Assembly (NCBI RefSeq): GCF_003605755.1
Contig: NZ_RAHJ01000014.1
Coordinates: 186,001 to 250,000, forward strand
Source: Tsuneonella suprasediminis
Lineage (GTDB): Bacteria; Pseudomonadota; Alphaproteobacteria; Sphingomonadales; Sphingomonadaceae
DNA length: 64,000 nucleotides
Reading direction: 5' to 3'
A program made the position numbers and the translations under genes. The notes under the pieces were generated by a model, which was not told where the DNA came from, made no database searches, and saw only the letters and a list, made by a program, of their open reading frames with translations. Of this stretch, positions 43,014-47,943 are shown in pieces (the stretch's first letter is position 1; each line of letters begins with the position of its first letter).

Positions 43014-43109
43014 ACGCGATTGATCCGTTAGTGTGCGCGGTTTCGCGACACATGGCCTCTCGATGGGGGGAGGGCGTTGCAGACACATTTTCATGGGGTT
43101 GCATCACGC

Positions 43110-44690
43110 ATGACAACACAAACACTGCCCGACGGGGATTCAGCAGGTACATTCCTCGGCCATCCAAAAGGGCTGTTCGTCCTGTTCTTCGCGGAGATGT
43201 GGGAACGCTTTTCGTATTACGGAATGCGCGCACTGCTGATCCTTTATCTGACCAAGCACTGGCTGTTTTCCGATAGCGAAGCCGGGGTTATCTACGGCGC
43301 CTATACCGCGCTGGTCTATATCACCCCGGTGCTGGGCGGATATCTGGCCGACAAATATCTGGGCCAGCGAAAGGCCGTACTATACGGCGCTGTATTGCTG
43401 ACCTTCGGCCATTTCCTGATGGGTTTCGAAGGGGATGGCGGGCAAGGCGGCGCGGCGCTCAACATCTTCTGGCTGGCGCTGGCCTTCATCATCGTCGGTT
43501 CCGGCTTCCTGAAAGCGAATATCTCGGTGATCGTGGGGCAACTCTATCCCCGCACCGATACGCGACGCGATCCGGCCTACACCATCTTCTACATGGGGAT
43601 TAACCTCGGCGCATTCCTCGGCTCTTTGCTGTGCGGCTATATCGGGGAAACCTATGGCTGGTCTTACGGCTTCGGTCTGGCCGGTTTCGGCATGTTGCTG
43701 GGTCTGGTCGTATTCGGGCTGGGCAAGAACCTGCTGCTGGGCCGGGGGGAACCGCCCAAACCACTCAGCAAAATGGCCGAACTGGGCCTGTATGTTGTTG
43801 GCCTGTTCACAGTGGTTCTGTGCTGGTGGATGGTCCAGAATCAGAGCGTGGTCGGCGTATTCCTCGGCGTATTCGGCGGCCTGCTGGTCGCGTATGTCAT
43901 CGGCACCGCAGTGATCAAACTGCCTGCCGAAGACCGGGATCGCATCTTTGCCGCGATGTTCCTGATTTTGGTGTCGATCGTGTTCTGGGCGCTGTTCGAA
44001 CAGGCAGGCAATTCGCTGAGCCTGTTCACCGACCGGCAGGTCGATCGTAACTTCTTCGGCTGGGAAATGCCCGCTTCGATGTTCCAGTCGCTGAACGCGG
44101 CCTACATCTTCCTGCTGGCCCCCGTGTTCGCGTTTTTGTGGACCGCTCTGGGCCGGAAAGGCATGGAACCGTCGGCTCCGTTCAAATTCGGACTGGGCGT
44201 GATTCAGGTCGGCCTCGGCTTCCTCGTGCTGGTATGGGGCGCACAGTCCGCCGGGATGGATGCCGCAGTGCCGGTGATCTTCATCTTCCTGATCTATCTG
44301 CTGCACACCACTGGCGAGCTGTGCCTTAGCCCGGTTGGCCTTTCAGCGATGAACCGTCTGGCACCGGCGCACATGGCATCGCTGATCATGGGCGTGTGGT
44401 TCTTCGCATCGGCCACCGGCAACTTCGCTGCCGGCCTGATTTCGTCCGCTGCAGGCGGCGAAGGGCTGGAAGGGGCAGAGGCCGGCAAGGAACTGGTGCT
44501 CAGCGTTTATACCACCGTTGGCTGGTATGCGATGGGCATCGGCGTTCTGGTGCTGCTCGTCAGCCCGCTGATCAAGAAGCTGATGCACCTCAACACGCTG
44601 ACCGATGGCGATCCGGCAGACGATTTGCTGGGCCAGAACGAAGTCGGTGAACCGCAAGGTCCGGGCGCGCATCCGGCGACACGCCACTGA
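43110..44690 (+). CDS. POT-family proton-coupled peptide transporter
   Basis: 526-aa MFS/PTR2 transporter with about 14 hydrophobic segments that imports di- and tripeptides with protons. The signature FAEMWERFSYYGMRALL (ExxERFxYYG) is near the N-terminus, and FYMGINLGAFLGSLLCGYIGE is the second PTR2 signature. The ATG at 43110 was preferred to a TTG 11 codons upstream; a G-rich stretch precedes it at loose spacing. Divergent from the GntR regulator. Confidence 0.93.
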   Translation: MTTQTLPDGDSAGTFLGHPKGLFVLFFAEMWERFSYYGMRALLILYLTKHWLFSDSEAGVIYGAYTALVYITPVLGGYLADKYLGQRKAVLYGAVLLTFGHFLMGFEGDGGQGGAALNIFWLALAFIIVGSGFLKANISVIVGQLYPRTDTRRDPAYTIFYMGINLGAFLGSLLCGYIGETYGWSYGFGLAGFGMLLGLVVFGLGKNLLLGRGEPPKPLSKMAELGLYVVGLFTVVLCWWMVQNQSVVGVFLGVFGGLLVAYVIGTAVIKLPAEDRDRIFAAMFLILVSIVFWALFEQAGNSLSLFTDRQVDRNFFGWEMPASMFQSLNAAYIFLLAPVFAFLWTALGRKGMEPSAPFKFGLGVIQVGLGFLVLVWGAQSAGMDAAVPVIFIFLIYLLHTTGELCLSPVGLSAMNRLAPAHMASLIMGVWFFASATGNFAAGLISSAAGGEGLEGAEAGKELVLSVYTTVGWYAMGIGVLVLLVSPLIKKLMHLNTLTDGDPADDLLGQNEVGEPQGPGAHPATRH

Positions 44691-44763: not shown

Positions 44764-46137
44764 ATGAAACTTACGGGATCGTTCATGACAGCGGCGGGCG
44801 CACTGGCGCTGGCCGCATGCAGCACCACCGCGGACAGCGGCGAAACACGCAGCGCCAGCGCCGCCACACCGAAATCGGCCAGCGGCGATGCGGCCTATCC
44901 GTCGACCTATAAACCCTATCCCGGCGCGCCCACCGCGCTGGTCGGGGCGACGGTGTTCGATGGCACCGGCAAGGAAATCGACAACGCCGTCGTGCTGCTG
45001 CGCGATGGCAAGGTGCAGGCAGTGGGCACCGGACTGGACACCGCCGGGTACACCGTGATTGATGGCACCGGCAAATATGTGACCCCCGGCATCATCGATA
45101 TTCACAGCCATCTGGGCGATTACCCCAGCCCCAGCGTTTCCGCCCATTCGGACGGCAACGAAGCGACCAGCCCGACAACGCCCGAAGTGTGGGCGGAACA
45201 TTCGGTGTGGCCGCAAGACCCCGGCTTTACCCGCGCGCTGGCCAATGGCGGGGTCACTACGCTGCAAGTGCTGCCCGGTTCGGCCAACCTGATCGGCGGG
45301 CGTTCGGCCACGCTGAAAAACGTGCCCAGCCGCACGGTGCAGGGGATGAAATTCCCCGGCGCGCCCTATGGCCTGAAAATGGCCTGCGGCGAAAATCCCA
45401 AGCGGGTTTATGGCGGCAAGGGGCGGATGCCCTCCACCCGGATGGGCAATTTCGCGGTCGATCGCCAGACATGGATCGACGCGCAAGGGTATGATGGCAA
45501 GAAACGCAATCTGGCCAAGGAATCGCTGAAGGGCGTGCTCGACGGCAAGATACTGGTCCACAACCACTGCTATCGCGCCGACGAAATGGCGCTGGTGATC
45601 GATATGGCCAAGGAAATGGGCTATAAAGTCACTGCCTTCCACCATGCGGTGGAAGCATACAAGATCGGCGATCTGCTGAAAGAAAACGACGTGTGTTCCG
45701 CTGTGTGGGCCGACTGGTACGGCTTCAAGATGGAAAGCTACGACGGGATTCCCGAAAACGCGGCCCTGTTGCAGAATGCCGGGGCCTGCGTGGTGATCCA
45801 TTCGGACGATGAGAACGGCATCCAGCGGCTCAATCAGGAAGCGGCCAAGGCGCAGGCAGCGGGCAAGCGGATGGGGATCGACATTCCTGACGCGCAAGTG
45901 GTCCGCTGGCTCACGCTTAACGCGGCAAAGGCGATGGGCATCGATGCGATGACCGGCAGCCTCGAAAACGGCAAGATGGCCGATGTCGTGCTGTGGAACG
46001 GCAACCCGCTCAGCGTCTATTCCCGGCCAGAAAAAGTGTGGATCGACGGTGCGCTGCTGTTCGATGCCGATAACCCCAAAATGCGCCCGGTCAGCGATTT
46101 CGAACTGGGACAGCCCGGCATGGGAGACGTGAAATGA
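44764..46137 (+). CDS. Metal-dependent amidohydrolase, lipoprotein
   Basis: 457-aa amidohydrolase-superfamily protein with a lipoprotein-type signal (lipobox ALAAC, Cys19). Metal-site residues look complete: HSH in IIDIHSHLGDY, His in ILVHNHCYR, His in TAFHHAVEA and Asp in VVIHSDDEN. It probably acts in the periplasm as an imidazolonepropionase- or prolidase-like hydrolase; substrate unknown. Its stop overlaps the next amidohydrolase start as ATGA. The frame is open far upstream into the POT gene; the ATG at 44764 was chosen for its signal peptide. Confidence 0.9.
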   Translation: MKLTGSFMTAAGALALAACSTTADSGETRSASAATPKSASGDAAYPSTYKPYPGAPTALVGATVFDGTGKEIDNAVVLLRDGKVQAVGTGLDTAGYTVIDGTGKYVTPGIIDIHSHLGDYPSPSVSAHSDGNEATSPTTPEVWAEHSVWPQDPGFTRALANGGVTTLQVLPGSANLIGGRSATLKNVPSRTVQGMKFPGAPYGLKMACGENPKRVYGGKGRMPSTRMGNFAVDRQTWIDAQGYDGKKRNLAKESLKGVLDGKILVHNHCYRADEMALVIDMAKEMGYKVTAFHHAVEAYKIGDLLKENDVCSAVWADWYGFKMESYDGIPENAALLQNAGACVVIHSDDENGIQRLNQEAAKAQAAGKRMGIDIPDAQVVRWLTLNAAKAMGIDAMTGSLENGKMADVVLWNGNPLSVYSRPEKVWIDGALLFDADNPKMRPVSDFELGQPGMGDVK

Positions 46138-47438
46138 ACCTGCGCCGCGTAACAGGCTTCGCCATTGCCGCCGCCGCTGCCGCTGTCTCCGCTCCGCTCG
46201 CGGCACAGAACGTCGCCATCACCAACGCCACGCTGGCGACTGGCGATGGCAGCGAACCGGTCGAAAACGCCACCGTGGTGGTGCAGAACGGCAAGATCGT
46301 CGCCGCCGGGCCGGGCGTGGCCGCGCCCGCCGGGATGGCGGTGATCGATGGCACCGGCAAATGGGTCACCCCCGGCCTGTTCGCCGCGATGACGCAGCTC
46401 GGCCTCTACGATGTCGATGGCGTGCCCAACAGCAACGACAGTTCGGGCGGGCGTTCGATCTTCAGCGCCGCGCTGGATGTGACGACCGCGCTCAACCCCG
46501 CCTCGCAGCACGTGTCGGTGACACGCGGCGGCGGGATCACGCGGGCCAGCGTGTTCGTAGGCCCCTCGTCCGCGATTTTCGGCGGGCAGGGCGCAGTGGT
46601 CGATCTGGGCGCGGACCCGAACATGGTGATGCGCCCGCGCGCGTTTCAGGTGGTGACGCTGGGCGAATCCGGCGGGCGGATCGCCGGTGGCACGCGGCTT
46701 GCCGCGCAGGCCGCCTTCCGCAACGCCTTGCAGGAAGCGCAGACCGCGGTGGGCAAGACCGACCGTCCGGCCGACGCGCTGCTCAACCGCCCCGACGCGC
46801 TGGCTCTGGTGCCGGTGGTGCGGGGGGAACAGCCGCTCTATGTCGCGGTGGAGCGGGCGGCGGATATCCGCTCTGTGCTGGCGCTGCGGAACGATTTTCC
46901 CAAACTCGATCTGGTGATCGTCGGCGCGAGCGAAGGGTGGATGGTCGCCAGCGAACTGGCCGCCGCCAAAGTTCCGGTGATCGCCCACGCGCTCGACGAT
47001 CTGCCGACCAGCTTCGAAGATCTGGCCGCGACGCAGAGCAACGTGGGCCGGATGGTCCGGGCCGGGGTGAAGGTCGCAGTGGGCGGCCTGACTGGCGGCA
47101 CCGGCGATCAGGCGCGCAATTCCAAGCAATTCGCGGGCAACCTCGTCGCGCTGAACAAGCTGCCCGGTGCCACAGGCCTGACATGGGGTCAGGCGCTGGC
47201 GACGATCAGCTCTGTCCCGGCGGAAATCGCCGGGTTCGGCGGCAAGGCAGGCGTGCTCAAACCCGGCGCGGTGGGCGACGTAGTGCTGTGGGACGGCGAT
47301 CCGCTGGAACTCGCCTCTGCCCCGGTGAAGGTGTTTATCGACGGGGTCGAACAGCCGACCGACAACCATCAGACCAAGCTGCGCGAACGCTATCGCGATC
47401 TCGACACCAGCCAGCTTCCCAAAGCATATGAGTGGTAA
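46134..47438 (+). CDS. Amidohydrolase-like protein without metal-binding HxH
   Basis: 434-aa exported paralogue of the preceding gene (signal peptide to about residue 23, ending SAPLAAQ). The N-terminal sandwich domain and C-terminal LKPGAVGDVVLWDGDPLEL fit the superfamily. The strand-1 motif expected as HxH after VTPG reads VTPGLFAAMTQLG, so both histidines are gone, and no clear equivalent of the catalytic Asp is seen. Likely a non-catalytic partner of its neighbour, with which it is translationally coupled. Confidence 0.85.
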   Translation: MNLRRVTGFAIAAAAAAVSAPLAAQNVAITNATLATGDGSEPVENATVVVQNGKIVAAGPGVAAPAGMAVIDGTGKWVTPGLFAAMTQLGLYDVDGVPNSNDSSGGRSIFSAALDVTTALNPASQHVSVTRGGGITRASVFVGPSSAIFGGQGAVVDLGADPNMVMRPRAFQVVTLGESGGRIAGGTRLAAQAAFRNALQEAQTAVGKTDRPADALLNRPDALALVPVVRGEQPLYVAVERAADIRSVLALRNDFPKLDLVIVGASEGWMVASELAAAKVPVIAHALDDLPTSFEDLAATQSNVGRMVRAGVKVAVGGLTGGTGDQARNSKQFAGNLVALNKLPGATGLTWGQALATISSVPAEIAGFGGKAGVLKPGAVGDVVLWDGDPLELASAPVKVFIDGVEQPTDNHQTKLRERYRDLDTSQLPKAYEW

Positions 47439-47943
47439 GCCGCCGATGATCGACAAGACCGCTTTGATGGCAGTGGGCGCCGCGATTATCGCCTGCGTCG
47501 GCTATGTCGCGTTGCGCGCGGCGGAACCCGCACAGTCGCAGGATCCGGCGTGGCTCAACAAACAACAACTCGCGCTGGCCGAACGCGCGGCGCAACCCGG
47601 CTGGCAGTCGCTGCCCGGCGGGCTGCTGTGGAAACGGGTGGCGGGCGACGGTTCGGGACAGCACCCGACGGTGGAGGACATCGTCTCGGTCGAATACACC
47701 GCGAAGCTGAGCGACGGCACTGTGATCGACACATCGGAAGGCGGCCCGCCTGCGACTTTCCCGCTCGGCAAGCTGGTGCCCGCATGGCAACGGGCAATCC
47801 CGCAGATGGGCGTGGGCGACACGATCGAAATCGCCTCCCCGTCAGACCTCGCCTATGGCCCGAAGGGCAAAGGGCCGGTGCCCGGCGGGGCGACATTGCT
47901 GTTCACCGTGAAGCTGGTCGGTATCGGCGGCGGCGCGGAGTAA
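47428..47943 (+). CDS. FKBP-type peptidyl-prolyl isomerase
   Basis: 171-aa membrane-anchored FKBP. An N-terminal helix (TALMAVGAAIIACVGYVAL) precedes a catalytic domain at about 70-168 with VSVEYTAKLSDGTVIDTS, PLGKLVPAWQRAIPQMGVGD and LAYGPKGKGPVPGGATLLF. It probably helps fold envelope proteins. It overlaps the end of the amidohydrolase-like gene by 11 nt; a second ATG at 47446 is an alternative. Confidence 0.92.
   Translation: MSGKPPMIDKTALMAVGAAIIACVGYVALRAAEPAQSQDPAWLNKQQLALAERAAQPGWQSLPGGLLWKRVAGDGSGQHPTVEDIVSVEYTAKLSDGTVIDTSEGGPPATFPLGKLVPAWQRAIPQMGVGDTIEIASPSDLAYGPKGKGPVPGGATLLFTVKLVGIGGGAE

Follow-up and report, generated by a model that had tools for sequence, protein, structure and literature searches.

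In the amidohydrolase superfamily, a set of six ligands (the two histidines of an HxH motif on strand 1, a lysine, two later histidines and an aspartate) binds two metals that are bridged by the lysine in carboxylated form. Live/dead paralogue pairs such as TldD/TldE are already known. The accessible part of the report on TldD/TldE describes a live and a dead homologue that heterodimerise and act on peptide substrates, the dead one being without metal ligands (PMC5810440). As far as that part of the report describes it, TldD/TldE differs in fold and in its HExxxH motif from the amidohydrolase pair studied here, and it includes no second dead domain or set of fusions, unlike the N, A and B proteins described below. 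A second precedent is the ATCase-pDHO complex of Pseudomonas; in the sections of the paper available, the pseudo-dihydroorotase is inactive, yet the ATCase is inactive without it, and the pseudo-dihydroorotase of a relative is reported to be without zinc ligands (PMC7053772). There the partner of the dead subunit is an unrelated transcarbamoylase, whereas here it is the live homologue itself. The dihydroorotase type of pDHO belongs to the same superfamily as A and B.

The literature that we searched, largely without subscription papers, contained no family that combines a single live amidohydrolase barrel with one or two dead sisters in several fusion orders. We describe such a family starting from a gene pair in the window, by which we mean the whole 64,000-nucleotide stretch of Tsuneonella suprasediminis DNA that was analysed. 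We consider it probable that A is an exported hydrolase and that B, an old paralogue without the metal site, is made with A as the pseudo-subunit of one heteromeric complex.

The gene pair and its metal site

The two genes and the signals that they carry are as follows.

44764..46137, + strand: gene A, predicted live amidohydrolase with a lipoprotein-type N-terminus (457 aa; profile, structure matches, six ligands)
44764..44820, + strand: signal peptide of A, ending at the lipobox Cys19 (LAAC), read from the translation
46134..46137, + strand: ATGA overlap of 4 bp between the stop of A and the start of B
46134..47438, + strand: gene B, putative amidohydrolase-fold pseudo-subunit (434 aa; profile, structure match, fold model)
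46134..46205, + strand: Sec-type signal peptide of B, approximately residues 1-24, read from the translation

The adjacency and the ATGA overlap given in the first-pass annotation, which was made from the letters of the DNA, are exact. With start codons chosen by script, 16 of 18 relatives show the 4-bp overlap, and in the other two it is 1 bp long. Export of the pair, also proposed at that stage, is borne out by simple patterns: 15 of 18 A proteins have a lipobox and 14 of 18 B proteins a signal-cleavage site, those of the window included.

Both proteins pass the PF01979 cut-off of 25 bits (A, 54.7; B, 28.4), and the top solved structure is the same for both, 3ooq, with E-values of 1.6e-61 for A and 5.3e-22 for B. 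This structural genomics entry, an amidohydrolase of Thermotoga maritima, carries the ligand set of A; the match starts at chain residue 11, so that, unlike in A, a long exported N-terminus is not seen in the construct. The HExxxH motif is absent from A and B, which matched amidohydrolase profiles instead. The model of A is weak (mean pLDDT 60.4), so we compared folds with the model of B alone. This AlphaFold2 model (mean pLDDT 73.6, pTM 0.78) aligns with 3ooq over 346 residues at 3.3 A with a Z-score of 36.8, the next entry having a Z-score of 23.6. Directly past the place of HxH, residues 89-106 have a pLDDT below 50, and the model therefore does not give the geometry of the lost site.

Aligning the two proteins places the ligands of A, and the residues of B that stand in their places, at these positions.

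45103..45111, + strand: HSH of A (His114, His116), strand-1 metal ligands, in 111/111 live domains
45376..45378, + strand: Lys205 of A, the presumed bridging lysine, its carboxylation taken from the superfamily, in 111/111 live domains
45565..45567, + strand: His268 of A, from the ligand alignment
45643..45645, + strand: His294 of A, from the ligand alignment
45805..45807, + strand: Asp348 of A, from the ligand alignment
46389..46397, + strand: Met86-Thr87-Gln88 of B at the place of HxH, by alignment; HxH in 0/154 partners
46650..46652, + strand: Val173 of B at the place of the lysine ligand (K205 in A), by alignment
46845..46847, + strand: Ala238 of B at the place of the strand-5 histidine (H268 in A), by alignment
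46923..46925, + strand: Gly264 of B at the place of the strand-6 histidine (H294 in A); Gly in 78% of 80 B domains
47088..47090, + strand: Leu319 of B at the place of the strand-8 aspartate (D348 in A), by alignment

Within the window, all six ligands of a two-metal amidohydrolase are present in A and none in B; in the region of the motif, A reads IDIHSHLG and B reads FAAMTQLG. The first-pass annotation had noted that A keeps HSH, later histidines and an aspartate, which is correct, and Lys205 is kept as well. Its reading of AAMTQLG where HxH should be in B also holds, although it understated the loss: the lysine, both later histidines and the aspartate are gone too. Gene A is thus a catalytic-type member of the superfamily by its profile and full ligand set, with hydrolase activity predicted, and gene B is a member by fold that has none of the six catalytic ligands.

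The residues that A and B have in common are largely glycines and other residues of the fold, along with some charged residues (R226/R188, R271/R241 and E297/E267 in A/B numbering); those conserved in A only are the ligands and a few residues close by. The shared charged residues of B (R188, R241, E267) and its own conserved residues, such as R131, D244 and P291, are what B would show if it were an enzyme in its own right, with an active site that works without metal or has been rebuilt, and four partner domains in the survey below retain three of the six ligands. We find this reading improbable: across B domains the places of the lost ligands have no common polar residue, Gly264 alone being well kept and the rest mixed, and HxH is missing near the motif throughout the partner domains.

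Pairing, site loss and selection across genomes

A and B travel together. In a sample of 249 Pseudomonadota genomes, A is present in 24 and B in 24, in identical genomes, and at all 25 places where the pair occurs the two are adjacent by coordinates; conservation of the pair in relatives, which had been suggested as a check on the initial reading, is thus found. Among the matches listed for 196 genomes of the window's order, scored by presence and not by position, A occurs in 160 and B in 159, with 158 genomes having both. The three genomes with one member (A only in G439 and G474, B only in G418, again among the matches listed) are all fragmented drafts.

We then surveyed 111 loci, comprising the window, 17 from contigs of named genomes, 20 from a phylum-wide sample and 73 from Acidobacteriota. 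Several loci may share one genome, and the Acidobacteriota loci were found through A-type matches, a route that misses partners lacking A. One live domain with one partner makes up 67 loci and one live domain with two partners 41; one locus has three of each, and in two a contig end truncates the live domain, which is unscored. In these loci from Pseudomonadota and Acidobacteriota, all 111 live domains have all six ligands, the truncated A fragments of L131 and L159 being unscored. HxH was found in 111 of 111 live and in 0 of 154 partner domains when we scanned from -10 to +25 residues around the Pro-Gly that precedes the motif (4 of the 154 have gaps at the HxH columns). The scan also disposes of chance, a local misalignment or a shift of the ligands in B. 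The absence of the histidines is therefore conserved, as the first-pass annotation had proposed to check, and among the 154 partners no relative retains HxH in the second gene, the case that it had named as refuting its reading. Because the live and partner labels in Acidobacteriota were assigned by the presence of HxH, the tests that remain independent there are the pattern of one live domain per set, the four ligands outside HxH and a tree from which the ligand columns were excluded.

Of the six ligands, 82 partners retain none, 55 one, 13 two and 4 three. Partners with two or three ligands left (in L098, L099, L100, L125-L127 and L131) look like stages in the decay of the site. In genome G131 there is a second, diverged A-B pair (L060) whose B has one His of HxH, and in G258 three live/dead sets stand in tandem (L104).

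Outside the count of 111 are L017, L023 and L024, all truncated at contig ends, together with four of the 25 places where the pair occurs in Pseudomonadota (G024, the first pair of G131, G214 and G075). They agree with the survey, with five complete A domains having six ligands and seven partners without HxH; in the A fragment of L024, Asp is the only ligand visible. The Acidobacteriota places G269:C208, G287:C118 and G274:C62 were left out. L029, a weak match, lies outside this family.

The tree computed without ligand columns included 102 partner domains. In it, 96 of the 102 cluster together to the exclusion of all live domains (support 0.984), and B proteins of the window's type group with two Acidobacteriota partners, L096 and L097 (support 1.0). 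The other six partners are placed without support: a group of 100 has 0.009, and it leaves out two, which come from L104 and L133. Six live domains adjoin the partners with a support of 0.711; given this and the weak placement of the six partners, a single loss of the site is not proved. Judged from the alignments and the tree, the loss of ligands in B is general and old.

A lost metal site might also be expected if B were a decaying, functionless duplicate, and B does diverge faster than A, with a mean p-distance over 108 pairs of 0.66 vs 0.57. In four close pairs of genomes, however, dN/dS is 0.081, 0.091, 0.046 and 0.062 for B and 0.064, 0.038, 0.036 and 0.118 for A. More distant comparisons, which are near saturation, give 0.291 and 0.259 for B vs 0.115 and 0.189 for A. 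Purifying selection acts on B, which is not decaying, and with values of 0.046-0.091 in the close pairs we rejected it as a pseudogene. Its frames are open in two phyla, the 24 of 249 genomes that have it are those that have A, and it shares frames with A; decay has next to no chance of being the explanation. The distances of A and B correlate over the 108 pairs (r 0.85), but linked genes should do so anyway, and we give the correlation little weight. The proposal, made from the sequence of the window, that B is a pseudoenzyme fits all of this: 0 of 6 ligands in the window, HxH in 0 of 154 partners, and purifying selection.

A second dead domain and shared frames

Many Acidobacteriota loci and four Pseudomonadota loci have a further ligand-less domain, N, upstream of A. 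The three parts are joined in several ways, where fused means a common stop-free frame read from sequence. A and its partner are in separate frames at 63 of the 111 loci, and N, A and B are all separate at 14. N and A share one frame with B separate at 15, including the four in Pseudomonadota (L068-L071); N is separate with A and B in one frame at 10, and A and B alone share a frame at 3. Single loci have N, A and B in one frame of 1419 residues (L121), fused A and B with a dead domain after them (L124), three tandem sets of which one is an A-B fusion (L104), and an N-A fusion at a contig end (L147); two loci are truncated in this count. In all, A is in one frame with a partner domain at 32 of 111 loci.

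Reshuffled fusions of this sort, here of N, A and B, are a classic kind of indirect evidence that the parts would sit in one complex; a shared frame could also reflect co-expression alone. The shared frames bear as well on the idea that B is a separate binding protein, one that collects or delivers substrate and associates with A at most briefly. In favour of this, B is exported, and a ligand could sit uncut in the cleft that was once its active site. On the other hand, A and a partner lie in one stop-free frame at those 32 loci, implying that physical proximity is the normal state there, and we regard a free binding protein as unlikely. Taken together, the pairing, the selection on B, the loss of ligands everywhere and the shared frames lend strong, if indirect, support to a complex that A and B would form. 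The C-terminus of B carries an LRxRY-type tail motif (47379-47393) that is present in 32 of 154 partner domains vs 0 of 111 live domains; this tail is a possible interface element.

In the complex that we favour, A would be the catalyst, an exported and probably membrane-anchored two-metal amidohydrolase. B would be a paralogue that split off long ago and retained the barrel but not the metal site, co-produced with A through translational coupling. A would bind B, which may have taken over the position of one subunit in an ancestral oligomer. B would contribute to assembly or stability and to the shaping of the substrate cleft, with no catalysis of its own. In this, B might be to A what, in the portions of the two reports available, the pseudo-dihydroorotase is to ATCase and TldE is to TldD (PMC7053772, PMC5810440). 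By analogy the pair may resemble the TldD/TldE heterodimer in its mode of working, a likeness that we draw here from the shared frames and the gene overlap.

Lone A-type enzymes with the full ligand set turned up in a search of a plasmid collection (L170-L173), in Cytobacillus, Acetoanaerobium, Monoglobus and Nonomuraea. Within 4 kb of these four Gram-positive enzymes we detected no partner domain, and by eye we saw no signal peptide at the starts of the Cytobacillus, Acetoanaerobium and Monoglobus frames. The lone enzymes indicate that this type of catalysis needs no B in principle. From these few sequences, the enzyme may have started out alone, with export belonging to the paired form. More tentatively, and with doubts that outweigh our confidence, the family could represent a widespread exported multi-barrel machine, its live barrel obligately flanked by one or two dead sisters (N, B) that form a substrate channel or gate; a lone, probably cytosolic Gram-positive enzyme would then be ancestral, and export in diderms would have come with the recruitment of dead copies.

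Neighbours, substrate and annotation

The pair in the window lies between two other genes.

43077-44690, + strand: POT/DtpA-like dipeptide/tripeptide (oligopeptide:H+) symporter, directly upstream of the pair, by profile matches
47428-47943, downstream: FKBP-type isomerase, its frame overlapping the end of B

With these flanks, the pair does not show the combination of a dead dihydroorotase with an aspartate transcarbamoylase that characterises ATCase-pDHO. Neighbours at other loci were clustered and left unnamed.

The first-pass annotation had suggested that the isomerase may aid folding. As a functional third partner folding A or B, it would fit the overlap of its frame with the end of B in the window; an FKBP gene stands beside the pair at only 5 of 80 loci, however (flanks are short in some), and the pair persists without it. 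The suggestion did not hold up: we rejected FKBP as a core part and give a role as third partner very little chance.

A gene related to the symporter is found beside the pair at 10 of 80 loci, and every named one of these comes from a sphingomonad or an erythrobacter. In the window's relatives, A may thus work beside the upstream dipeptide/tripeptide symporter, a link that is limited to some of them. The top NCBIfam profile of A is NF051886, the Caulobacter Xaa-Pro dipeptidase, at 55.1 bits; this is far under the cut-off of 500, and we rejected that identity for A. The nearest folds of the B model include isoaspartyl dipeptidase, prolidase and Xaa-Pro dipeptidase (2qs8, 3mtw, 3n2c, 1onw). These folds, the NF051886 match and the symporter hint that the substrate of A may be small peptides or similar amides.

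The system offers many natural experiments on how pseudoenzymes are retained: sets have two or three parts, fusions differ in their order, some partners have lost the site only in part, and some relatives stand alone. In A and B the use of a dead subunit to a live one becomes directly testable. It also shows that the common name amidohydrolase can hide catalytically dead subunits, which are unfit for assay or modelling on their own. Indeed, in two named annotated records with the paired set, live and dead proteins alike are called amidohydrolase. The A-B pair is present on Novosphingobium pSA1, and a Hymenobacter volaticus plasmid (L169) carries a set of N, A and B with frames that are broken in the record as deposited, where they are annotated as a number of smaller proteins. 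Apart from A and B, the genome of the window has eight further places with PF01979 matches, for which G000:C13:89281-90327 is listed; one of the eight is a frame of 1104 residues.
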